A stretch of DNA of 64,000 nucleotides from Corynebacterium camporealensis (GTDB lineage Bacteria > Actinomycetota > Actinomycetes > Mycobacteriales > Mycobacteriaceae). The stretch lies in the NCBI RefSeq assembly GCF_000980815.1, contig NZ_CP011311.1, positions 1,098,571 to 1,162,570 on the forward strand, in the 5' to 3' direction. The notes beneath the pieces are model-generated. The model saw only the letters and a list, made by a program, of their open reading frames with translations, did no database searches and was not told the origin of the DNA. The position numbers and the translations under genes were made by a program. This document shows positions 3,317-14,863 of this stretch, one piece after another. The number at the start of each line of letters is the position of its first letter. The stretch's first letter is position 1.

Positions 3317-4540
3317 ATGAACTTTAGCGCCGACGCACACGACACCATCCGCGTGGTGTTGTATAGCCACGACTCCCAAGGCATGGGGCATGTCCGCCGC
3401 AACTTAGCCATCGCCCATGAACTAGCACGCACGTTGCCGGAGCTTAGCGGCAAGAAAGTCTCCGGACTTCTAATTTCCGGTGCGGTCAACGCCCAAGTCT
3501 TTGGGCTGCCGGAAGGCTTTGACTGGTTCTTTATCCCCAGCATCGCCAAAAGCCCGAAAGGCTATATTCCTCGCAATCTGGATGCCGACTGGAATACCCT
3601 CCGGGCAGTGCGCTCGCGTGCAATATCGGGTGCGTTGCGTGGCTTTAACCCAGACCTGGTCATCGTGGACCGCCACATCTACGGCGTCGACCACGAGCTG
3701 CGCATCCCGCTGCAGAAACTGCGCCAGCACAATCCAGAGACCAAGATCGTCCTGGGCATGCGCGAGGTTCTCGACTCACCACTTATCGCGCAACAAGAGT
3801 GGGACCAGCTGGGCGCACCGTGCGAAGTCGATGCGCTTATCGATGAAGTCTGGATCTACGGCGATAGCCGCATCCATGATCCAGTTCGCACCGGCGAGCT
3901 TCCCAGCTACTTAGCCGAAAAGGCGCGCTATACCGGTTACCTGTCTTTAGGCCGTGCCGAATCCGAAGCACCCACCGAACAGCCCTGGGACAAACCCTTC
4001 ATACTGACTACTGCCGGTGGTGGCGCCGATGGCCACCAACTACTCAGTGCCGCAGTAGCCATGGAGGTCCCTGCCGGACACCGCCACATCGTGGTCACCG
4101 GCCCGCACCTAAGCCAAGCAGAGTTTGATGAACTCAACGACGCTGCAAGTCCACACACGACCGTCTACCGCATGTGGCCTGGTTTAGCCGCTGTCATGGG
4201 GGAGGCCGCCGCGGTGATTTCCATGGGCGGCTACAACACCGTCGCAGAAATCCTTGCCACTGAAACCCCAGCGCTCATCGTCCCGCGGGAGTACCCACGC
4301 TTAGAACAACTCATCCGCGCATTAGCTCTGCAAAAGCACGCCGCACTCGATGTCTTACGGCCTTACTCGTTGACCCCAGAAGCACTCGCTGACTGGGCAC
4401 AGGCCAACGCCGGCAAGAAGGTGAACCGCACCCGCATTGAACGCGCTGGTCTTCAGCACGTAGGACAACTCGCTGCTGAGCTGCTGCGCGGGGAAGAACT
4501 CACCGCCGAATTAGCGCAACTCGTAGGAGCACAATCATGA
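3317..4540 (+). CDS. GT28/MurG-like glycosyltransferase, first gene of the glycan cluster
   Basis: Putative nucleotide-sugar glycosyltransferase of GT-B fold, 407 residues. The N-terminus has the motif SHDSQGMGHVRRNLAIA (about residues 17-33), like the glycine-rich acceptor loop of MurG/UGT-type enzymes. The C-terminal half has TTAGGGADG and the donor-site-like MGGYNTVAEILA, followed by TPALIVPREYPRLEQ. A ribosome site AGGAG lies 8 nt before the ATG. The stop overlaps the next gene in an ATGA. At least eight leucines use TTA, which is absent from ilvC, so codon use differs from the flanking operon. Donor and acceptor are unknown. No signal peptide or membrane segment is seen, so it is cytoplasmic or peripheral. 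Confidence 0.75.
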   Translation: MNFSADAHDTIRVVLYSHDSQGMGHVRRNLAIAHELARTLPELSGKKVSGLLISGAVNAQVFGLPEGFDWFFIPSIAKSPKGYIPRNLDADWNTLRAVRSRAISGALRGFNPDLVIVDRHIYGVDHELRIPLQKLRQHNPETKIVLGMREVLDSPLIAQQEWDQLGAPCEVDALIDEVWIYGDSRIHDPVRTGELPSYLAEKARYTGYLSLGRAESEAPTEQPWDKPFILTTAGGGADGHQLLSAAVAMEVPAGHRHIVVTGPHLSQAEFDELNDAASPHTTVYRMWPGLAAVMGEAAAVISMGGYNTVAEILATETPALIVPREYPRLEQLIRALALQKHAALDVLRPYSLTPEALADWAQANAGKKVNRTRIERAGLQHVGQLAAELLRGEELTAELAQLVGAQS

Positions 4541-5775
4541 ACAAGATCGCTTATATCGTGAAGGTTTACCCACGCTTTTCAGAAACCTTCATCGTCACCG
4601 AAATTCTTGGCCGCGAAGCACAAGGCGAAGACATCAGTATTTACGCCATGCGTCCGACCACGGATACCCGATTCCATCCGGAACTATCCCGAGTCAAAGC
4701 CCCGGTGTCCTGGATTCCACGGCCGCACAATGCACGGCGCTTTTGGAGCCAAGTCTCTGAAAGTCTCACTGACCCTGACATGGCAGCCCGTTTCGCCCAG
4801 ATTCTCCCGGAGCTGTCCCAACTTGCTGCCTCCGATGTCGCTCAAGGCGTGGCTTTAGCCCAGCGCGTGCGTGCCGATGGCATCACCCACCTACACGCTC
4901 ACTTCGCATCGCTATCCGGGCGAATGGCATGGATTGCCTCGCAGCTCACCGGCATTGGATACACCCTGACCACGCATGCCAAGGACATCTTCCACGACGA
5001 CGTCGATAAGACCTGGCTGCGCCGCATCTGCGCAGACGCCGACAACGTCATCGCGATTTCTCGATTCAACGAAAACTACCTGCGTGCTGAACTCGAAGGC
5101 ACCGGCGCCAACATCGTGCAGCGCTACAACGCATTAGAACTCGAACGCTTTCCGTTCACACCGCGTAGCGCATCCAGCTCCGCTCTACGCATTATCGCGG
5201 TGGGACGACTGGTCCCGAAGAAGGGCTTTAGTCACCTGCTGCAGGCCCTACGTCAGCTCACCGATCGTGGGGTAGAAGCACACCTGACCTTGGTAGGCGA
5301 AGGCGAACTGCAGGAGCAACTAGATCAAGAGGTTCACGACTTAGGCCTCGACGAGCACGTCACGATGCCCGGTGCACTTAATCAAGCAGAAGTCATTGAC
5401 TTACTTCAACAATCGGACGTCTTCGCTGCACCGTGTGTGCCAGCTGCCGACGGCAATCTCGATGGCTTGCCCACGGTGGTGCTGGAAGCAATGGCCTTAG
5501 GCACTCCAGTCCTTGCCACCGACGTCACGGGCTTGCCAGAAGTCGTCATCAATAACGACACCGGCGTGCTTATCACGCTTGATGAGGTGGAACCGGACTT
5601 GGCCACAGCGCTTGCCGATGCCCTCGAATCCTTCAGCAACGGCGATCCCGACACCGAAACCTTGACTCGTAATGCGCGCAGGCTTATCGAGGACAACTTC
5701 GACAACCGCCTGCAAGCCCAAGCCCTGTATGAACTGGAGGTGGGAAGCTCATGCGTATCGCTTACATCTGCGTAG
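4537..5775 (+). CDS. GT4-family glycosyltransferase
   Basis: Retaining glycosyltransferase of the GT4 type, 412 residues, GT-B fold. Visible marks are the N-terminal acceptor domain (THLHAHFASLSGRMAWIA), the domain-linker motif IIAVGRLVPKKGFSHLL near residue 225, and the donor site FAAPCVPAADGNLDGLPTVV followed by LEAMALGTPVLATD, which supplies the family's E-x7-E-like element. It starts at the ATGA overlap with the preceding gene and ends 25 nt inside the next, so the three glycosyltransferases are probably translated as a coupled set. The substrate cannot be deduced; transfer from UDP-glucuronate is possible given the dehydrogenase gene at the end of the cluster. Confidence 0.85.
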   Translation: MNKIAYIVKVYPRFSETFIVTEILGREAQGEDISIYAMRPTTDTRFHPELSRVKAPVSWIPRPHNARRFWSQVSESLTDPDMAARFAQILPELSQLAASDVAQGVALAQRVRADGITHLHAHFASLSGRMAWIASQLTGIGYTLTTHAKDIFHDDVDKTWLRRICADADNVIAISRFNENYLRAELEGTGANIVQRYNALELERFPFTPRSASSSALRIIAVGRLVPKKGFSHLLQALRQLTDRGVEAHLTLVGEGELQEQLDQEVHDLGLDEHVTMPGALNQAEVIDLLQQSDVFAAPCVPAADGNLDGLPTVVLEAMALGTPVLATDVTGLPEVVINNDTGVLITLDEVEPDLATALADALESFSNGDPDTETLTRNARRLIEDNFDNRLQAQALYELEVGSSCVSLTSA

Positions 5776-6899
5776 ATCCCGGCATTCCCATTTTCGGGAC
5801 CAAAGGCGCTTCCGTCCACGTTCAAGAAGTTATCCGAGAGTTGCGCAAAGCAGGCCACGACGTACATGTCTATGCCACCCGCGTGGGCACCGATGTCCCG
5901 GCGGACTTGCAGGATATTCCTGTCACCCGCTTCAAGTTGGGTACGAAGGAACCGGAAGCTCGTGAGAACGCCCAAATTCAAGCCAGTGCTGACATCGTTG
6001 CAGCCTTGACCGATGATGGTGCGGAGTTTGTTTACGAGCGCTACTCGTTGTTCTCCACGGCGTTGGCAGATTCTGGTCTGCCCGGAATCCTGGAAGTCAA
6101 TGCACCGCTTATCGATGAACAACGCACCCACCGCGTACTCATCAACGACTTAGCTGCACAGCGCGCACTGCAGGTACAGGTGCGCGCCGCACGCGCGGCC
6201 ATCTGTGTTTCTGAAGCCGTAGCCAATTGGGTGCGTGCTTCTGTCCCGAACACAGACAACGTGCACGCGATTGCCAATGGCGTGAACACCGATCGCATTC
6301 GACCACAGCCAGAAACACCGGGCGTGCCAGTTGTCACCTTCGTTGGAACGCTCAAGCCCTGGCATGGCACTGAATACCTCATCCGCGCGGCGGCACACGC
6401 GCAGCAGCAGTGGCGTTTGCGCATCATTGGTGATGGTCCTGAGCGCGAGCACCTCGAGTTCTTAGCACGCGGCCTCGGCCTCGAAGTCGACTTTTGTGGT
6501 GCCGTTCCACCAGAAGATATGCCGGCACAGCTGGCAGGTTCTGCTGTTGGTGTTGCGCCTTATCCTGCACCGAAAACTAACGATGCACATTACTTTTCAC
6601 CCCTAAAAGTCTACGAATACCTAGCTGCGGGACTGCCAGTTGTGGCTACACGTGTGGGGCAGGTTCCCGGCGCGCTCGGCGGCGTCGTCAAGCAGGAGGA
6701 TTCCGATCACCTAGAGGTCCGCGAAGCCGGGGTCATCGTGGAAGGTTCCTCCCCAGAGGCGTTGGCGCAGGCTATTGACTACCTCGTAACAGATGCGCAT
6801 CTGCGTGCCACAACGGGCGCACGCGCGCGTGAGTTGGCGGTGTCCCAGCACAGTTGGGCAGGAGTTGTATCCCAGATGTGGGAGCTGGCTCATGGCTAA
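5751..6899 (+). CDS. GT4-family glycosyltransferase (third in cluster)
   Basis: GT-B fold glycosyltransferase, 382 residues. The N-terminus MRIAYICVDPGIPIFGTKGA carries the acceptor-side loop, followed by a central AICVSEAVANWV segment and a donor domain with VTFVGTLKPWHGTEYLI, KTNDAHYFSPLKVYEYLAAG and LPVVATRVGQ. It overlaps the previous gene by 25 nt and the ABC gene by 8 nt. It is probably in the same pathway as its two neighbours, building an oligosaccharide or glycolipid on the inner leaflet before export. It could alternatively be a capsule or teichuronic-acid type enzyme. Confidence 0.85.
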   Translation: MRIAYICVDPGIPIFGTKGASVHVQEVIRELRKAGHDVHVYATRVGTDVPADLQDIPVTRFKLGTKEPEARENAQIQASADIVAALTDDGAEFVYERYSLFSTALADSGLPGILEVNAPLIDEQRTHRVLINDLAAQRALQVQVRAARAAICVSEAVANWVRASVPNTDNVHAIANGVNTDRIRPQPETPGVPVVTFVGTLKPWHGTEYLIRAAAHAQQQWRLRIIGDGPEREHLEFLARGLGLEVDFCGAVPPEDMPAQLAGSAVGVAPYPAPKTNDAHYFSPLKVYEYLAAGLPVVATRVGQVPGALGGVVKQEDSDHLEVREAGVIVEGSSPEALAQAIDYLVTDAHLRATTGARARELAVSQHSWAGVVSQMWELAHG

Positions 6900-8694
6900 G
6901 AAGTTGGAAAAGCGTGCGGTGCAACGCACGGTGTCGTTGGTGTGGCCGGATGTGAAACCCCATCGCACCTTGGCAATGGGTGGTGTGGTGGCACTGCTGT
7001 TTGAGGTTGCCTTCCGCGTGTTAGAGCCCTGGCCGTTGAAGTTCGTCGTGGACGCGGTGTCTGTCTCAATGGGCGTGGATCAGGAGGGCCGTCCGGCGAC
7101 GACCGGTTTGCTACTGGCTTGTGGCGTTGCAGTGATCCTCTTTGTTGGACTGCGCGCACTGTCGAATTACCTGGCCACGGTGGCTTTTGCCCTCGTGGGC
7201 TCAAGGGCATCCACGCGTTTGCGTGCGCGGGTCTTCCAGCATGTTCAGGGCCTGAGCATGCAGTATCACGCGAAGAATCGCTCGGCGGATACGGTCCAAC
7301 GCATTGTGGGCGATGTGGGCAAGCTGCAAGAAGTTGCTGTCACCGCGGGTCTGCCGTTGTTGGCGAACGTGGTCACCTTGGTGGTCATGCTGATTGTGAT
7401 GCTGGTGATGGACGCGTGGCTAGCGATGATCGTCGTTGCTGCCCTGTGCATCTTTCCGCTGTTATCGCTGACGACGACGAAGCGGATCACGAAGGCCTCA
7501 CGTAAGACTCGCAAAGCCGAAGGACAGCTGGCCAACACCGCCCAAGAAGCACTCAGTTCGATTACCGTCGTGCAGGCTTATGGCCTGGAAGAGCACTTGG
7601 GTGAGCGCTTTACCTTCGCAAACAAGAAATCGCTGAAAGATGGAGTGAAGGCACGTCGCCTGGCAGCGCGTTTGGAGCGCGGCACCGATGTCATTGTCGG
7701 TCTGGCAACCGCTGCCATCCTAATTGGCGGTGCCTACCGGGTTCTCGACGGCGTGATGACCATTGGTGACTTGGTGCTGTTTACGACCTACCTCAAGACC
7801 ACCATGAAGCCCCTGCGCGACTTAGCGAAGTACACCGGACGCATCGCGCGCGCTGCAGCCTCGGGTGAACGCGTTGCCGATTTGATGGACAAAGTCTCCG
7901 ACGTGCGCAGCCCTGCCGACCCGCATATCCACGACCGCTACTTAGGCTATGTGGAGTTCAACAACGTCAGCACCATGTATGGACGCCAGAAGGTCCTTCA
8001 CGGCGTGGACCTATTTATCCGCCCCGGTGAACACGTCGCCGTCATCGGCCCTTCGGGTGCGGGCAAGTCCACGCTGGTGTCCCTACTCGTGCGTGCCCAG
8101 GACCCCGCCTGGGGTGAAGTCACCATCGACGGCCACCCGTTAGAGGACCTGGAGTTAAGCCAACTGCGCCACAACATCTCTTTGTTGCATCAGGAAGCAG
8201 TGCTGTTTACCGGAACCGTGGCCGACAACATCCGCTTAGGGCGCTTCGATGCCACGGATTTCGAGATTGAAGAAGCTGCTGCAGCCGCCGGGGCGCATGC
8301 CTTCATCCAGGATCTGCCCGACGGCTATGACACCGTCGTCGGCGAACGCGGCGGCACGCTTTCTGGTGGCCAGCGCCAACGCATCGCGATTGCTCGAGCC
8401 CTGCTGCGCAATAGCCCTATCGTCATCCTCGACGAACCGACCACCGGACTGGATCCGGCATCGGCGCGTGGGGTGCTCAAGGGCATCGACAAGCTGGTCA
8501 ACGGTCGCACCACGCTTTCGGTCACCCATGACGCCGAGGTCGCCCTGCGTGCAAGCCGCGTGGTGTGGCTGGAAGCAGGCCAAGTGCTTTTCGATGCCCC
8601 ACCCAACGACCTACTCGAGAACAACGACACCTTCCAGCGCTGGGTCGCACAATCCACTACTGCCGAAGAGGTGAGACTCCTTGATGACGCTTAA
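6892..8694 (+). CDS. ABC exporter half-transporter (membrane domain fused to ATPase)
   Basis: Type IV ABC exporter of 600 residues, probably working as a homodimer. The N-terminal transmembrane domain (about residues 20-330) has around six hydrophobic segments, including two close together at VVTLVVMLIVMLVMDAWLAM. The ATPase has Walker A GPSGAGKST, Q-loop LLHQEAVLFTGT, signature LSGGQRQR, Walker B IVILDEPTTGLD and the H-loop SVTHD. I chose ATG 6892 (MAKKLEKRAV) over the longer frame from 6793 because the latter lies inside the preceding glycosyltransferase. It overlaps both neighbours (8 and 11 nt). Context suggests it flips or exports the product of the glycosyltransferases; a drug or peptide exporter cannot be excluded from sequence alone. 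Confidence 0.88.
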   Translation: MAKKLEKRAVQRTVSLVWPDVKPHRTLAMGGVVALLFEVAFRVLEPWPLKFVVDAVSVSMGVDQEGRPATTGLLLACGVAVILFVGLRALSNYLATVAFALVGSRASTRLRARVFQHVQGLSMQYHAKNRSADTVQRIVGDVGKLQEVAVTAGLPLLANVVTLVVMLIVMLVMDAWLAMIVVAALCIFPLLSLTTTKRITKASRKTRKAEGQLANTAQEALSSITVVQAYGLEEHLGERFTFANKKSLKDGVKARRLAARLERGTDVIVGLATAAILIGGAYRVLDGVMTIGDLVLFTTYLKTTMKPLRDLAKYTGRIARAAASGERVADLMDKVSDVRSPADPHIHDRYLGYVEFNNVSTMYGRQKVLHGVDLFIRPGEHVAVIGPSGAGKSTLVSLLVRAQDPAWGEVTIDGHPLEDLELSQLRHNISLLHQEAVLFTGTVADNIRLGRFDATDFEIEEAAAAAGAHAFIQDLPDGYDTVVGERGGTLSGGQRQRIAIARALLRNSPIVILDEPTTGLDPASARGVLKGIDKLVNGRTTLSVTHDAEVALRASRVVWLEAGQVLFDAPPNDLLENNDTFQRWVAQSTTAEEVRLLDDA

Positions 8695-9799
8695 CCCCAC
8701 ATCCCTGCACAAGCACCTGAACAACGCACTCGATAGCGAGTGGCTTAGCGAGCACGTCGGCTCCGAAGTCGCCCCGACATATCTGCGTATCAAACCACAC
8801 ACCAGCCTGGTTGTTGCCTGGGCAGCCAATCCAGGCAGCCCGGGCAGCGAAAGGTATGGGTGGGCGCGGATGCTGTGGCCCGGCGCGCAAGCCAAAGCCG
8901 CTAAGGCCGTGGACCATGCCCGCAAGGCAGGGCAGCGACTCACCGGTTGCTGGCTTGATGATGACATCTTGTTCCAAGCCGGCGACCTGTGTGCCGATCC
9001 GAAACTGAGCAAGCACATCCGCCATGCGCACTTGCTGGATGACGTGGAGGTCCTACGCTATAACCCGCTGCGCCGCGTTGTACTGGCCACCGCGGATACG
9101 GTCTACCGGATTAGTACCCACTTGCAGCTACCGGCAGAGACCTACCGGCTTATTAGCCAGGCAGTCAACGTGCCGGAAATGCTGAGCAATTCCCGCGATG
9201 GGCTGAAAAGCCGTGCGAAGCGTGTCGGCTGTGGCGACCTCAGTAATTATGCAGGCACTGCTGGTACCAGCAGGGAGCATCAGCTGCATGCCGAGGCCGG
9301 TCGCCAACTCGCACAGCTTCATAACGTGTGCTTGCCAGCACACGGGCACAGGCAGGCATGCTCCGGGCTTAAACAGCTCTACGCTCATGCAACTGTTCTC
9401 GACCACCTAGATAGTGAGCTTGCCCAGCGCGTTCGCACGGTCGCCGCACACCTGCCGTTGGTGGTGGGCGAGCCGGTTACCGTGCATGGCGATGCCTCAC
9501 CCGATCAGTTCCTTTACTCAGCAACCGGCGAGGTCTGGATGACTGACTTCGACCGCCTCGCTCTAGGACCAGCTGCACTCGACTTAGGTTCCTATCTTTC
9601 TGAGTGCTCCGATGCAGCTGGCGATTCCTTCTTGCAAGGCTACGAGGAACAGCGCCCGCTGCCGACTGAGTCTGAACTTCGCATCGCCCGTGCGCATTCC
9701 CTGGCAGCACGCCTGCTGACCCCGCTGCGGCAAGCACACTCCACCTGGCGCAGCGACATCACAACGCGCCTGGATGAAATGGAAGAGGTGCTGTCATGA
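8684..9799 (+). CDS. APH-fold phosphotransferase (putative sugar kinase) 1
   Basis: Protein of the aminoglycoside-phosphotransferase/choline-kinase fold, 371 residues. The C-terminal lobe has the catalytic loop VHGDASPDQFLY followed by the metal-binding WMTDFDRLALGP, and then ALDLGSYLSE. The usual Asn of the HGDxxxxN loop is Gln here, a change I remember from maltokinase-type sugar kinases. The N-terminal lobe is divergent. ATG 8684 is preferred to the adjoining TTG 8681; the gene overlaps the ABC gene by 11 nt and the next kinase gene by 4 nt. The context favours phosphorylation of a sugar or glycolipid over antibiotic resistance. Confidence 0.72.
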   Translation: MTLNPTSLHKHLNNALDSEWLSEHVGSEVAPTYLRIKPHTSLVVAWAANPGSPGSERYGWARMLWPGAQAKAAKAVDHARKAGQRLTGCWLDDDILFQAGDLCADPKLSKHIRHAHLLDDVEVLRYNPLRRVVLATADTVYRISTHLQLPAETYRLISQAVNVPEMLSNSRDGLKSRAKRVGCGDLSNYAGTAGTSREHQLHAEAGRQLAQLHNVCLPAHGHRQACSGLKQLYAHATVLDHLDSELAQRVRTVAAHLPLVVGEPVTVHGDASPDQFLYSATGEVWMTDFDRLALGPAALDLGSYLSECSDAAGDSFLQGYEEQRPLPTESELRIARAHSLAARLLTPLRQAHSTWRSDITTRLDEMEEVLS

Positions 9800-10800
9800 G
9801 TAAGGCACTCGAGGTACTCAACCAACTGCCACTGGTGCGACGGGGATGGCCGGGCAAGGCTGGCTCCATCCTGGTCGAGGCATTCGATAACCAACACCGC
9901 CTGCGCGCCGGGAAGATAGGCGCTGATGGCGATATCACTTGGGCGCAGTTCGGTGAAGACAGAAAGCTCCCGTCGTTCCAGGTAGATACTGGTGAGCTAC
10001 TCGTACACCGTTATGGCAAGCGCGCGGTAGTTCGTAGCGGCGACGTGATCACTAAGCACCTGCGTCCGGGCAAGGCACACGCAGTAGCGGAGAAGTCCAT
10101 TCAAATCCGCAGTGCCTGCCGTCGCATCGGTCTCGGTGCGGCACAAGTCGTCGACCACGATGATTCCTCGGTGACCTTTGCGCTGTTGCCAGGACGCAGC
10201 GTGCACACTCTAGGCGATGATGCGCTTCCTGCCTGGCAGCAGTTTCTGGAGCTGTGGCCAAAGTGGCAGGAGCTCAACGTGGCAGACTTGCCGATGTTTA
10301 GCGCCTTGGATGAAGCCGAGACTCTACGGACCTGGGTAGGACATGCCGTGCAGCACGAGGTCACCTATAGCGACGAGATTGAAGAAGCTGCCGAGATTGT
10401 CTGCGATCGCCTCATCCGTGACATGCCCGAACCCGGCGCGCCGGGGCATGGTTTGTTGCACCGGGACCTGCACGACAAGCAACTGCTGTGGGATGGCGAG
10501 GCTTTGAGTGTTCTCGATGTCGATACGGCAGCCTATGGCGAGGTGGCACTGGATATTGGGAACCTCACGACGCATGTGCGCTTGCGAGCGCTCCAAGGAG
10601 TGCTGAGTCCCGACTGCGCGAAGCAGGTGCTAGATGGCTTAGAGGCCTTAGCGCCACAGGAGCGAACGAAGGTCTATGCCGACTCGGCGGCACTGCGACT
10701 TGCGTGTGTGTATGCCTTCCGGCCCACTGCGGCGAGCTGGTGGAAGCAATGGACACTGCGCGTATTGGATGAACTACTCGATGAAGGACAAGCACAATGA
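9796..10800 (+). CDS. APH-fold phosphotransferase (putative sugar kinase) 2
   Basis: Second kinase-like protein, 334 residues. The catalytic loop is HRDLHDKQLLW, with Gln again in place of the usual Asn, and the DFG-equivalent is VLDVDTAAYGEVALDIGNL. A helical C-terminus follows. It overlaps both neighbours by 4 nt (ATGA at each end). It is only distantly similar to the preceding kinase, so the pair may have different substrates or form a heterodimer. No signal peptide or membrane segment is present. Functional assignment rests on fold motifs and neighbourhood only. Confidence 0.7.
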   Translation: MSKALEVLNQLPLVRRGWPGKAGSILVEAFDNQHRLRAGKIGADGDITWAQFGEDRKLPSFQVDTGELLVHRYGKRAVVRSGDVITKHLRPGKAHAVAEKSIQIRSACRRIGLGAAQVVDHDDSSVTFALLPGRSVHTLGDDALPAWQQFLELWPKWQELNVADLPMFSALDEAETLRTWVGHAVQHEVTYSDEIEEAAEIVCDRLIRDMPEPGAPGHGLLHRDLHDKQLLWDGEALSVLDVDTAAYGEVALDIGNLTTHVRLRALQGVLSPDCAKQVLDGLEALAPQERTKVYADSAALRLACVYAFRPTAASWWKQWTLRVLDELLDEGQAQ

Positions 10801-12125
10801 AGATTTCGGTGATTGGCTGCGGCTACCTCGGCGCGGTACACGCAGCATGTATGGCAAGCTTGGGACACGAGGTCATAGGTATCGATGTCGATGCGAGCCG
10901 CGTTGCGGCACTGAATGCGGGGCGCCCGCCGTTCTATGAACCGGGATTTCCGGAGGTACTTGGTGAAGCCCTAGCTACGGGGCGCCTACGCTTTGCGATG
11001 AACACTGACCCGGGCGTTATCGCCGATGCAGACGTGCACTTTATCGCTGTTGGTACGCCACAATCCTCGGATGGTGAAGCAGCTGATGTCTCCTACGTCG
11101 ATGCGGCGGTGGACTTCATTATGGAAGCTATTAAGCACAGCACTCGTGATAGGTCCACGCCACCGGTGGTCGTCGGTAAGTCGACAGTTCCGGTGGGAAC
11201 CGCAGCGCGTCTGCAGACGCGCCTGGATGCCGTTGGTGCACTGTTGGTGTGGAACCCGGAGTTCCTGCGGGAAGGGCATGCGGTTGCTGATACCTTGTGC
11301 CCGGACCGGATTGTTTACGGTCTGCCGGACAAGGGCGGGGAAGTAGCGCGCAGAGTACTCGATGAGGTCTACGCTGAGGCACTGTCGGCAGGTATACCGC
11401 AGGTGCTGACCGACTTCGCCACGGCAGAGTTGGTGAAGGTAGCGGCGAATTCGTTTCTTGCGACCAAGATCAGCTTTATCAACGCTATGGCGCAGTTGTG
11501 TGAGGCCACCGGTGGTGATGTCACGCAGCTGGCGGAAGCGATTGGGCATGATAAGCGCATCGGCAAGCATTTCCTGGGTGCCGGCATTGGCTTTGGCGGA
11601 GGCTGTTTGCCCAAAGACATCCGTGCTTTCGCCGCGCGCGCAGGGCAGTTAGACATCGCAGAAGTGGTGGACCTGCTGCACACCGTGGATGCGATTAACC
11701 ATCAGGCAATGCGCCGGGTGGTCGCTGCCTGTGAGCGCGAGCTTGGCGATGTCCACAGCACCCACATCGGAATCCTCGGCGGGGCGTTTAAGGCGAACTC
11801 CGATGACATTCGCGAATCCCCAGCCCTCCTGATTGCCAGCGAGCTGGCCGCCCGTGGTGCGAGAGTGAGTATCTACGACCCACAGGCAGGTTCCAACATC
11901 GCCGCCAAGTACCCGGCGCTTAACGTCGTGGACTCGCTAGACGAGGCTGTGACGGGAGCAGACATGACGTTAGTGCTGACCGAGTGGAAGGAGTTTCGGG
12001 AGCTGAGTCCTGCGGACATCGCAAAGCATGGTGCACGCAGGCGGATTCTGGACGGGCGCAACATTTTAGACCCAGCCGAGTGGAAGGATGCTGGTTGGAG
12101 CTATACCGGCATGGGGCGGGCCTAG
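10797..12125 (+). CDS. UDP-glucose/nucleotide-sugar 6-dehydrogenase
   Basis: NAD+-dependent four-electron oxidation of a UDP-sugar to the UDP-uronic acid, most likely UDP-glucose to UDP-glucuronate. The 442-residue product has the Rossmann motif VIGCGYLGAVHAACMASLGH at the N-terminus, the substrate-loop WNPEFLREGHAVADTL, the catalytic cysteine (residue 270) in GFGGGCLPKDIRAF, and the C-terminal ILGGAFKANSDDIRESPA. Length is typical for UGDH. It is the last of the overlapping cluster and presumably supplies the activated uronic acid for the three glycosyltransferases. UDP-ManNAc or UDP-GalNAc dehydrogenase activity cannot be ruled out. Confidence 0.9.
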   Translation: MKISVIGCGYLGAVHAACMASLGHEVIGIDVDASRVAALNAGRPPFYEPGFPEVLGEALATGRLRFAMNTDPGVIADADVHFIAVGTPQSSDGEAADVSYVDAAVDFIMEAIKHSTRDRSTPPVVVGKSTVPVGTAARLQTRLDAVGALLVWNPEFLREGHAVADTLCPDRIVYGLPDKGGEVARRVLDEVYAEALSAGIPQVLTDFATAELVKVAANSFLATKISFINAMAQLCEATGGDVTQLAEAIGHDKRIGKHFLGAGIGFGGGCLPKDIRAFAARAGQLDIAEVVDLLHTVDAINHQAMRRVVAACERELGDVHSTHIGILGGAFKANSDDIRESPALLIASELAARGARVSIYDPQAGSNIAAKYPALNVVDSLDEAVTGADMTLVLTEWKEFRELSPADIAKHGARRRILDGRNILDPAEWKDAGWSYTGMGRA

Positions 12126-12171: not shown

Positions 12172-13965
12172 ATGGGTTTTACCACGCCGAGCTATTCCTT
12201 ATCCGACCTTTTCGCCCGGATTAACCGCGGCGATATCCAACTGCCCGACTTCCAACGCGCCTACTCCTGGGATGAAGACCGCATCCGTTCGCTGGTGGTG
12301 ACAGTCCTGCGCGGATACCCGGTGGGTGCGCTCATGGCGCTTGATACCCGTGATGAGCACATGCGCTTTCGGCCCCGTCCGTTGGAAGGTGCGCCGGATA
12401 GGGGAGTTAACCCGGGCATGTTGCTTCTCGATGGGCAGCAGCGGCTTACGACGATGTACCAGTGTCTGGCAGGGGAAGGGTGGGTTAAGACCCGCGATTT
12501 TCGATCCAAGAAGATCGAAAGGACCTTCTACATCGATATTCGCACCGCGGTGTCCGAAGAGATCGTGCCGGATGAAGCCGTCTTTGCCGTTAACCGTTCC
12601 GGCGAGATTCGCTCCCACTTCGGCCCTGCTATCGATGGGCCGCTGCTCACGCGTGACGATGCCATCGCTAACTACTGCCTGCCCGTAGCCAGCCTGCTGC
12701 AAGAAGAAGGCACGGCCATGCTCTTCGCCATGGTTGCCAATGCCGATGCGGAAACCCAACGCGACCTCGCAGCCTTCAACAACCGCGTCTTGCGACCCCT
12801 GGCCGGCTACGACGTGCCAATCATGCGGGTGTTCCGCGATACCCATCGCGCCGGGCTGGGTTCGATTTTCGTCCAGGCCAACTCGGCGGGCCTGCAGATG
12901 GATGTCTTTGATCTGCTTACTGCGGTCTTTGCGTCTGAAGACCCGGATTTCCACTTGTCGGAGAGCTGGGCTGAGTATGAATCTCAGCTGCGCGAGCACC
13001 CGGCCTTGGATGGGATTGGGCGTACGCAGTTTCTCTCGGCGGTCTCGCTGCTGGTCACAGCGGAGAAGGGCAACCCGGGTGGTCAGCGCGAGGATATTTT
13101 GAGTTTGAGCCTGGCTGACTATCAGCAGGCAGCACCGGTGGTGTGCAAGGCACTGGGCACGGTGGCGGAATTCTTGGCCGAGCGCTGCGTCTTCGCACTG
13201 GAGCAGGTCCCTTATACCGCGCAGATTATTCCCCTGGCAGTCATCCTGGCGCGCCTTGAGCAATCCCCGGGTGCGCTGGATTCGCAGAAGGCTTGGGATC
13301 GCCTGCACCAGTGGTTCTGGTGTGGCGTGTTTGGTGAGCTCTATGGTTCCTCGGCGGTCAAGCTGCGCGCGGCGCGCGATGTCGTCGAAGTCACCGACTG
13401 GGTCAAGGGCGAGACGAAGAAGGTGCCGAAGACCGTGGAGGATGCGAACTTCCGCGAGTCTAGGTTGTTGTCGGTCGATGAGACGTCCGGCGTCTGGCAT
13501 GGCCTGTATGCACTGCTGATGGCCCAAGGTGCGAAGGATTGGCGTACTGCACGCAAGTTCAACGAGGAATCCTATGAAGAACTTAAACCCGGATTCCACC
13601 GGATTTTCCCGGTCGCCTGGTGCCAGCGGAAGGGGCTTGGCGCAGAGGTAGCGAACTCGGTGTTGAACCACACCCCGTTGGGCAAGCGCACCGAGGTGGT
13701 TCTCGATGGCTATTCGCCAGAGCGTTACCTGGGTCGGGTACAGTCAAAGTCACTCATGGAAGACAGCGAGTTCGACGCCGTCTTAGCCACGCACAACTTG
13801 GATGTCGAGGCCTTGCACGAGGCCCGGGCAGCGGATTTCTTTGCAGATCGCCGGGCGCGGTTGGTCAAGGTGATCCAGCATGCCATCGGCAAGCAAGTGC
13901 TGCGTGATGTAGACGAGAAGAACTTCAGTGGCGGCGAGGAAGGTCCGGAGGCATTTGCGCGTTAG
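12172..13965 (+). CDS. DUF262 (GmrSD/ParB-like) domain protein
   Basis: Protein of 597 residues with an N-terminal DUF262 domain. FQRAYSWDEDRI near residue 25 and LLDGQQRLTTMYQ near residue 87 are the family's hallmark motifs, related to ParB/Srx-type nucleotide-binding folds. The C-terminal half ends with SVLNHTPLGKRTEV and SPERYLGRVQ, typical of full-length stand-alone members. I do not see a clear HNH-type (DUF1524) nuclease motif. GmrSD-type proteins cut modified DNA and many DUF262 proteins sit in defence islands, so a phage-defence role is possible but unproved. ATG 12172 was chosen over 12088 because of the leaderless -10 box and because 12088 lies inside the dehydrogenase gene. Confidence 0.82.
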   Translation: MGFTTPSYSLSDLFARINRGDIQLPDFQRAYSWDEDRIRSLVVTVLRGYPVGALMALDTRDEHMRFRPRPLEGAPDRGVNPGMLLLDGQQRLTTMYQCLAGEGWVKTRDFRSKKIERTFYIDIRTAVSEEIVPDEAVFAVNRSGEIRSHFGPAIDGPLLTRDDAIANYCLPVASLLQEEGTAMLFAMVANADAETQRDLAAFNNRVLRPLAGYDVPIMRVFRDTHRAGLGSIFVQANSAGLQMDVFDLLTAVFASEDPDFHLSESWAEYESQLREHPALDGIGRTQFLSAVSLLVTAEKGNPGGQREDILSLSLADYQQAAPVVCKALGTVAEFLAERCVFALEQVPYTAQIIPLAVILARLEQSPGALDSQKAWDRLHQWFWCGVFGELYGSSAVKLRAARDVVEVTDWVKGETKKVPKTVEDANFRESRLLSVDETSGVWHGLYALLMAQGAKDWRTARKFNEESYEELKPGFHRIFPVAWCQRKGLGAEVANSVLNHTPLGKRTEVVLDGYSPERYLGRVQSKSLMEDSEFDAVLATHNLDVEALHEARAADFFADRRARLVKVIQHAIGKQVLRDVDEKNFSGGEEGPEAFAR

Positions 13966-14863
13966 CGAGAATGCATCCCGAATCGGCGGGATGGCGCTGG
14001 TAGTAGCAAGCGCAGTAGTCTTAAGCGCCTGCGCGGCGTGGGGCGATGAAAACGTGGTGAGCAACCAGCTGCGCGACTTGTCGGCAGACGAGATTGATAT
14101 TGCCGAAGCGCGCGCGGAAAACACCAACCGCATTTTCGACCCGGAATTCGAAGGACGCATCGTGGTGATGAATGATGCCTCCGGTATTGAAAGCGCGCGC
14201 GAGCTATTTAGTGACAGCGGATCGTTGGTGCTTACCGATGACACCGACTCAGCCATTTTGCGCGGTGCGTCTATTGCGGTGAGCCAACACATCCCCATGG
14301 TGGTCTTCAACCCGGAAGAACGCCTGGAAGTACAGAGCTTGATTGCTGATTTAGGGGTTACTCGTCTGCTGGTGGTCGGCGATGTCCGCTGGGCCGAGCA
14401 GGAAGGTGAACTCAACGTTATCCGCGACCCAGGTTCGACGAAAGCCTTGGGCGATTACACCGCCTTTGTCTTTGAATCCAAGGTGGTGGCCAAGCCTTCG
14501 GATATGTTTGCTGATATCGTCTCGCTGGAGCCCGGTGGCAAGGTTGAGCTGAAACCAGCGTGGGAAAATCCGACCGTGAATACCGAACACGACAAGATGC
14601 CTGCCATCCCCGCGCAGTCCCGTCGTGATGGCGAAGTTGCGCCAAACATGGTAGCGACTGCACACACCCCACTGCCGAACCTCATCAATGCCCGGTCCTA
14701 TGGTGCAGAAGTGCTGGTCATGCCCAATGCTGACCCGCGGCACGATGAAGTTTCACACGCGATGGTGGCTGGGCTTTCCGACGGCCCATTGGTCGCCTTG
14801 GGCCCCGAATTCGGTTCCGTGAAAGAAATTTCTGAGAAGATTGCCCAAGCTGACGCTGAATAA
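13928..14863 (+). CDS. Secreted lipoprotein related to the N-terminal part of the product of 17685-19145
   Basis: Predicted lipoprotein of about 311 residues with a hydrophobic stretch [14 protein letters not shown] ending in a lipobox. The mature part contains repeated alpha/beta segments ([28 protein letters not shown]) and ends [20 protein letters not shown] followed by [12 protein letters not shown]. The same end pattern (SARAAGAPVEILPVGDPRAT, AAGPDFGSAEDF) occurs in the protein encoded at 17685, so the two are paralogous. The organisation resembles cell-wall-binding repeat 2 (CWB2) modules, from memory and at low certainty. The start is uncertain: GTG 13928 overlaps the DUF262 gene by 38 nt, whereas ATG 13991 would leave almost no n-region. 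The function is unknown. Confidence 0.68.

Follow-up and report, generated by a model that had tools for sequence, protein, structure and literature searches.

A module of three glycosyltransferases, an MsbA-type exporter and two APH-fold kinases, with an accessory UDP-glucose 6-dehydrogenase, in Corynebacterium camporealensis and other bacterial phyla

The genome of Corynebacterium camporealensis (GCF_000980815.1), a single contig of 2.45 Mb that is rated 100% complete, carries seven consecutive genes (g1–g7) for three glycosyltransferases, an ATP-binding cassette (ABC) exporter, two APH-fold kinases (APH1 and APH2) and a UDP-glucose 6-dehydrogenase (UGDH). The genes lie on one strand at positions 3317-12125 of the window, i.e., the 64,000-nt stretch of NZ_CP011311.1 (positions 1,098,571 to 1,162,570, forward strand) that was analysed and to which all coordinates refer, and are placed between ilvC and a GmrSD-like gene:

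3317..4540, + strand: g1, GT28-like GT-B glycosyltransferase with a MurG-like C-terminal half (PF04101)
4537..5775, + strand: g2, GT4 glycosyltransferase, EpsE/WcaL/TuaC-like (PF00534)
5751..6899, + strand: g3, second GT4 glycosyltransferase (PF13692)
6892..8694, ATG start, + strand: g4, MsbA-type ABC exporter with membrane domain and ATPase in one chain (PF00664, PF00005)
8684..9799, + strand: g5, APH1, APH-fold kinase with an N-terminal extension and HGDASPDQ and DFD loops (PF01636)
9796..10800, + strand: g6, APH2, divergent APH-fold kinase with HRDLHDKQ and DVD loops (PF01636)
10797..12125, + strand: g7, UDP-glucose 6-dehydrogenase of the TuaD/AglM type, accessory to the six-gene core (three UDPG_MGDP_dh domains)

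The first-pass annotation had described seven same-strand genes with six junction overlaps of 4, 25, 8, 11, 4, and 4 nt, and this arrangement was reproduced from the open reading frames. The g4/g5 overlap is 11 nt if g5 starts at the ATG at 8684 and 14 nt if it starts at the TTG at 8681. The annotation had also drawn attention to the TTA codons of g1. Their count is correct (eight in g1 and none in ilvC), but as an argument it carries little weight and was dropped, because the G+C content of g1–g7 (57–61%) resembles that of the window (59.8%). Base composition does not mark g1–g7 as foreign. A scan for promoters and terminators gave no excess over shuffled sequence.

The assignment of three GT-B enzymes, an ABC exporter, two APH-fold kinases and a UGDH was upheld by Pfam and NCBIfam, and for g6 by a genome search and the fold of an AlphaFold2 model. 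g1 scores 35 bits against Glyco_tran_28_C (PF04101), its nearest solved structure is MurG (1f0k, E 2.5e-8), and its MGGYN and PRxxxRxEQ-type positions are invariant across 12 aligned sequences, the window copy included. g2 scores 122 bits against PF00534, and its matches to the NCBIfam models EpsE, WcaL, and TuaC (158, 120, and 97 bits) are each under the cut-off. The same holds for g3, with 88 bits against PF13692 and a sub-threshold match to TuaH (61 bits). g4 combines ABC_membrane (PF00664, 147 bits) and ABC_tran (PF00005, 117 bits) in a single chain and reaches 382.5 bits against TIGR02204 MsbA_rel (cut-off 780). It falls below the NCBIfam equivalog cut-offs for MsbA_lipidA (368 vs. 602 bits) and the glucan exporter (325 vs. 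733 bits).

Within the genus, g1 was found in 12 of 151 genomes (E ≤ 1e-20, window genome included). Eight of these carriers hold all seven genes in order, and L030–L033 have g1–g4 and the kinases in order with no UGDH in their 18-kb stretches. Protein identity between the window and its 11 genus relatives ranges from 27 to 80%, being lowest for APH1 and highest for the ABC protein (approximately 50–80%; the L031 copy is in pieces). The same tight arrangement is found in the 11 genus relatives, and the clustering is therefore not a matter of chance. APH1 and APH2 each occur in the same 13 of the 151 genomes (E ≤ 1e-8), namely the 12 g1 carriers and G119. Independent occurrence of the genes in relatives had been named in advance as a finding that would speak against a common system; at this threshold, each kinase is confined to g1 carriers and one incomplete genome (G119).

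Outside the genus, the g1 profile matched at least 18 of 396 phylum genomes, which is a lower bound because at most four candidates per genome were scored, and 2 of 201 family genomes, with the window genome counted each time. APH1 alone, used as query of the genome contigs, retrieved no relative, while the g1 alignment recovered relatives. We compared 107 loci, of which L071–L150 are the best 80 of at least 588 GTDB stretches related to g1 and therefore lean to close kin. L077 is on the same contig as L029. Five phylum loci (L044, L059, L066, L067, and L068), a second E. coli stretch (L152) and L153 stand outside the 107.

The genes for the GT28-like enzyme, the first and second GT4 enzymes (GT4a and GT4b) and the ABC exporter are contiguous in this order in 89 of the 107 loci, hereafter called core loci, and 71 of these 89 also have both APH1 and APH2. 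The complete six-gene order (GT28-like, GT4, GT4, ABC, APH1, and APH2) was seen in Actinomycetota, Pseudomonadota, Cyanobacteriota, Planctomycetota, and Chloroflexota. The four-gene core is present, among others, in Arachnia, Rothia, Actinomyces, Kocuria, Arthrobacter, Brevibacterium, and Nesterenkonia, in a Chloroflexia metagenome-assembled genome and several cyanobacteria, and in Planctomycetota, Gemmatimonadota, Jannaschia, Paracoccus, Thiohalocapsa, Aggregatibacter kilianii, and Mixta. Both kinases are found, for instance, in the cheese bacterium Brevibacterium aurantiacum (L092) and in Micrococcus terreus (L093), and Rothia endophytica (L072) is one of the species with UGDH. Among the matches listed, the closest relatives are Gram-positive actinobacteria. 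Some of the 18 loci without the four-gene run (L060, L064, L065, L099, L105, L113, L118, L124, L125, L136, L137, L139, L141, L142, L145, L146, L148, and L150) are short contigs or split matches, and of the 18 core loci that lack one or both kinases, 7 end at most 400 bases past the last match, at contig ends. In E. coli, 18 of 5,426 genomes carry the module, all on plasmids and with at least 99% identity over 10.2 kb.

The proposal that the seven genes form one unit was thus borne out, since the order is kept in 12 of 12 genus carriers (8 with UGDH) and far beyond the genus; the suggested search for the set as a block across actinobacteria found the order there and in other phyla as well. In the 68 loci holding all six genes, the pairwise identities of one gene rank in much the same way as those of any other (Spearman 0.76–0.90), as expected of genes that travel together. 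The core is thus a six-gene module spanning phyla and no corynebacterial peculiarity.

Matches on Rhizobium and Shinella plasmids were not counted as the module, as they have a different arrangement with a 900-aa ABC protein, a cyclic nucleotide monophosphate (cNMP)-binding protein and no annotated APH. Two rhizobial plasmids (L009 and L010) carry a related GT28-GT4 cluster together with the 900-aa ABC protein, the cNMP-binding protein and an ABC importer. Many clusters of neighbouring frames were likewise left unused because by eye they resemble antisense frames of module genes.

The module is patchy in the genus and has moved horizontally, since the genus rows do not form one clade and the copies occupy several chromosomal places. 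In a quick tree of g1–g4 from 83 of the 89 core loci (L031, L056, L069, L077, L085, and L110 left out), the 11 genus rows require at least three changes, and a single clade is rejected in the approximately unbiased test with p ~1e-56. L025–L027 have common flanks, L028 and L029 have other common flanks, and no match to ilvC, serA or the two genes that follow the module in the window (g8 and g9) was found in the stretches of the 11 genus relatives.

g7 has all three UDPG_MGDP_dh Pfam domains, scores 394 bits against TIGR03026 (cut-off 189.8) and contains the Cys loop GFGGGCLPKD, which together identify it as a UGDH by sequence. The CLPKD motif is present in all 19 module UGDHs listed. The protein is of the TuaD/AglM type (333 and 334 bits, compared with 132 bits against PRK15057), whereas the UGDHs of the E. 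coli plasmid and Aggregatibacter copies are of the Ugd type (568 and 580 bits against PRK15057, under the cut-off of 757). Because two UGDH subfamilies adjoin the module in different phyla, the sequences suggest that module and UGDH were joined at least twice separately. A UGDH gene lies downstream on the same strand in 19 of the 89 core loci, and its presence on the locus tree needs six changes. UGDH is therefore an optional accessory to the six-gene core. The possibility that the dehydrogenase feeds only a capsule made elsewhere, raised as an objection beforehand, was examined in part: the genome has a second UGDH gene, beside a dcd-like gene (recognised by eye), and the module copy is the extra one.

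Both kinases are of the APH type. g5 scores 48.1 bits against PF01636 (cut-off 23.2), and g6, which was missed by the Pfam hmmscan, reaches 28.7 bits against the same family in the genome search; its AlphaFold2 model (pLDDT 92.9) has the APH fold. The HxD loop (HGD/HRD) and the metal-binding DxD are invariant in the aligned APH1 and APH2 sequences, and the fold matches agree with them. R143 of g5 (column 187 of alignment A3) is an invariant Arg in APH1, located about where the phosphate-binding Lys is expected, and may replace it.

Canonical APH enzymes have Asn at the position where the module kinases have Gln. The APH(4)-Ia mutants named in titles among the fold matches are D198 and N203, which we take to be loop residues and which have the same spacing as in HxDxxxxQ. 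Downstream of the ABC gene in L071–L150, Gln was found in 109 of 110 such motifs, the exception being APH2 of L116; the fifth residue after HxD had to be Q or N and a DxD had to follow, so that kinases outside this pattern were uncounted, and one of the 109, that of L084, appears to be coincidental. According to PMC4306142, the Gln of the catalytic loop of maltokinase binds Mg, and maltose-binding Lys and Tyr residues lie near its C terminus. PMC6520443 gives the loop of glucosamine kinase as HGDFHVGQ and the signature of the actinobacterial enzymes as Q-x2-RE-x2-YA-x3-LP-x-W. The HxDxxxxQ loop of the module kinases matches that of maltokinase and glucosamine kinase. They have the maltokinase-type Gln, which alone does not make them maltokinases.

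Fusions link the two kinases to each other and to the exporter. APH1 and APH2 share one open reading frame in three of the 12 genus carriers (L030, L032, and L033; 648–685 codons) and in Paracoccus, while a run of N inside the module leaves the state of L031 undecidable. ABC-APH fusions were found within the module in L058 and L065 and in the proteins P0040–P0043. A supposed ABC-APH fusion in L061 was rejected, as the long frame differs from the ABC frame and contains no Pfam families. Read most simply, this means that the kinases work on whatever the exporter transports.

Several gene types adjoin the module. AlgE-like genes are present in five loci (L151, L152, L135, L116, and L118, from the E. 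coli plasmid, Mixta, Competibacteraceae, and a betaproteobacterial copy), and Pfam Alginate_exp (PF13372) was confirmed in all three tested (L152, L116, and L135). In the two E. coli plasmid copies that were read, the order is APH2, AlgE-like gene, and UGDH, and the AlgE-like gene also follows APH2 in the Mixta and Competibacteraceae loci. Sulfotransferase-like genes adjoin the module in six loci (L060, L064, L123, L131, L134, and L143), and more weakly in a seventh, with up to three per locus, which suggests that some lineages sulfate the product. Genes for both a histidine kinase and a response regulator are present in 33 of 108 loci, a count that may be due in part to chance as such regulators are common. 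The sulfotransferase and two-component counts come from profiles built from the neighbours, of which Pfam confirmed one sulfotransferase (L143), two histidine kinases and one response regulator. Most of these partners fit what is expected of an anionic surface glycan.

Other neighbours were noted on their own account. Two shared families adjoin the module in the actinobacterial loci L059, L064, and L069, and in L064 these are a TPR-CHAT protease and an S8 subtilase. A vitamin K-dependent gamma-carboxylase-like gene (HTTM and lumenal domain) lies directly upstream of the module in L058 (5403-6881). In the window, g8 (12172-13965) starts 46 nt past g7 and contains GmrSD_N; its PADLOC matches are candidate defence proteins. 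g9 (13928-14863) overlaps g8, directly precedes serA and has a lipoprotein-like start with no Pfam or NCBIfam match. Neither g8 nor g9 has a match in the 18 kb around the module in any of the 11 genus relatives.

Taken together, we consider it probable (roughly 60%) that the module builds an anionic, sometimes uronate-containing glycan in the cytoplasm, phosphorylates it and exports it through the ABC protein without Wzx and Wzy. UGDH would supply UDP-glucuronate in the lineages that carry it, and the GT28-like enzyme and the two GT4 enzymes would work in the cytoplasm, assembling a short oligosaccharide or repeat unit on an acceptor. APH1 and APH2 would then place phosphate onto the glycan or its acceptor, the MsbA-type protein would carry the phosphorylated product across the membrane, and in some proteobacteria the product may leave through the AlgE-like barrel. 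The substrates, the order of the steps, the choice between polymer and oligomer and the action of the kinases on the exported product are all elements that we infer. WbaP-type (PF02397), Wzx (PF01943) and Wzy (PF04932) proteins gave no match in g1–g7 or in the genome at E ≤ 0.001, in searches for which the C. glutamicum control was positive with all three profiles and which did not cover WecA-type PF00953.

Several observations weigh against this account or narrow it. Profile searches may miss divergent Wzx, Wzy, and WbaP proteins. UGDH is missing in 70 of the 89 core loci and, because only 19 have it, uronic acid is not a general feature of the product; of the uronic-acid glycan pathway first proposed for the locus, the acidic exported glycan fits the UGDH and AlgE-like genes, but the uronate does not generalise as UGDH is an accessory. 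Export across the outer membrane is not general either, no AlgE-like gene being found in the loci examined apart from the five. In 9 of the 89 core loci only one kinase type was detected by BLAST although the contig continues (L058 has two matches of it), two Planctomycetales core loci (L121 and L123) show neither kinase, and there are GT28-GT4a pairs without adjoining ABC or kinase genes, e.g., L139 and L145. Partial module sets exist: in G119 (L153; 53% complete), GT4b, APH1, APH2, and UGDH are found at that place without GT28, GT4a, and ABC.

The kinases also leave room for doubt, as HxDxxxxQ does not fix the substrate. The glucosamine kinase signature was found in 0 of 162 tblastn-aligned stretches and 0 of 41 proteins, and the module kinases are therefore not of that family. 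The lanthipeptide kinase LxmK is the best, or tied best, VIA match of g5, and both kinases have a wide variety of antibiotic, peptide and small-molecule kinases as their top fold matches, so that the fold by itself is a poor guide to the substrate; the VIA-align rows show APH-type folds only, and a family absent from them is not thereby excluded. The kinases could instead act on precursors. They would then be ordinary sugar kinases that feed free sugars into nucleotide sugars, in the way that maltokinase and glucosamine kinase supply their own pathways, and have no role in export. This agrees with the fold matches of g6, which include structures of these two enzymes, with the HxDxxxxQ loop that both share with the module kinases, and with the N-acetylhexosamine kinases among the VIA rows for g5. 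We regard this role as unlikely, given that the seven genes include no nucleotidyltransferase or sugar-phosphate mutase, that the ABC-APH fusions point to the exporter and that both kinases are retained in 71 of the 89 core loci.

A stronger competitor is that the glycan is anchored to wall or lipid and kept in the envelope, for instance as a teichuronic-acid-like polymer or a phosphoglycolipid. The resemblance of g2, g3, and g7 to TuaC, TuaH, and TuaD (all under the NCBIfam cut-offs), the distant relation of g1 to the lipid-acceptor enzyme MurG, the likeness of g4 to MsbA-type lipid exporters and the Gram-positive actinobacteria as closest relatives all speak for it, whereas the AlgE-like exporters in five proteobacterial loci suggest a product leaving the cell there, and the module has no Wzy-type polymerase. 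We hold it to be a real prospect at less than even odds; it is compatible with most of the phosphorylated-export reading, and our estimates for the two overlap. Some lineages could anchor the product and others secrete it. It is very improbable that the genes form a self-resistance or defence island whose transferases, kinases and exporter inactivate and expel a toxic compound. The APH, GT-B, and ABC families are typical of drug modification and efflux, and the neighbour g8 is GmrSD-like, but UGDH and the AlgE-like partners misfit drug inactivation, and g8 and g9 are without match around the genus copies, as noted above. PADLOC found no matching proteins of known anti-phage systems for g1–g3 and g5–g7, and its matches to g4 cover ATPase parts only. 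Accidental adjacency of unrelated genes, for which the patchy occurrence in the genus (12 of 151 genomes) and the partial sets might be cited, is barely credible beside an order conserved across phyla, the shared inheritance and the fusions.

A more far-reaching proposal, which we put forward tentatively and with more doubt than confidence, is that the module represents an undescribed secretion route beside the Wzx/Wzy, ABC-2, and synthase routes. A line of three transferases would be followed by export licensed by two successive phosphorylations from Mak-like kinases docked on or fused to the MsbA-type exporter, with swappable add-ons across phyla (UGDH for uronates, sulfotransferases, AlgE-like barrel and two-component control). 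No description of the gene set was found in the open-licence PMC literature with mostly narrow queries, and an account elsewhere or under another name is possible. Given so wide a spread (actinobacteria, cyanobacteria, planctomycetes, and E. coli plasmids), the module would indicate that many known bacteria make a surface sugar that has been overlooked. If the kinases gate export, it would offer a simple system in which to study the recognition of completed sugar chains by an ABC exporter, and the natural forms with and without UGDH, and with kinases fused or separate, allow these questions to be addressed by comparison.

Among known systems, the teichuronic acid pathway of Bacillus subtilis (TuaA-H) shares UGDH and GT4 enzymes with the module, but the similarities of g2, g3, and g7 to TuaC (97 of 550 bits), TuaH (61 of 550) and TuaD (333 of 700) lie below the equivalog cut-offs. 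Unlike this pathway, the module has two kinases and an MsbA-type exporter, with no Wzx-like, Wzy-like or WbaP-type protein in it or detected in the genome. In Corynebacterium, a known use of UDP-glucuronate is the glucuronate glycolipid and lipomannan pathway (GlcAGroAc2), which the genome's other UGDH, beside the dcd-like gene, could serve. Alginate secretion through AlgE (PF13372) resembles the E. coli plasmid, Mixta, Competibacteraceae, and betaproteobacterial copies in having an AlgE-like gene. Alginate and cellulose synthase-type systems differ from the module, as g1–g7 include no GT2 synthase and the AlgE-like gene is limited to five loci. ABC-2 subunits (KpsMT or Wzm/Wzt) are likewise absent from g1–g7, the part of the genome that was searched for them.

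Maltokinase (Mak) and actinobacterial glucosamine kinase (GlcNK) share with the module kinases the APH-type fold, the HxDxxxxQ loop and the DxD or DxE loop, while the module kinases lack the GlcNK signature, are usually paired and lie next to a glycan exporter. The WbdD-type chain-terminating kinases of O-antigen export work with the two-part Wzm/Wzt transporter. A kinase marking the finished glycan for an ABC transporter would be common to both systems, which we use as a working analogy only, and the transporter of the module is of the MsbA type and not Wzm/Wzt. The MsbA-type and cyclic-glucan (NdvA/ChvA) ABC exporters are one-chain proteins that move glycolipid or glucan. g4 likewise joins ABC_membrane and ATPase in one chain; it differs from them in scoring below their equivalog cut-offs, and the exporter of the module in being fused to APH kinases in some lineages.

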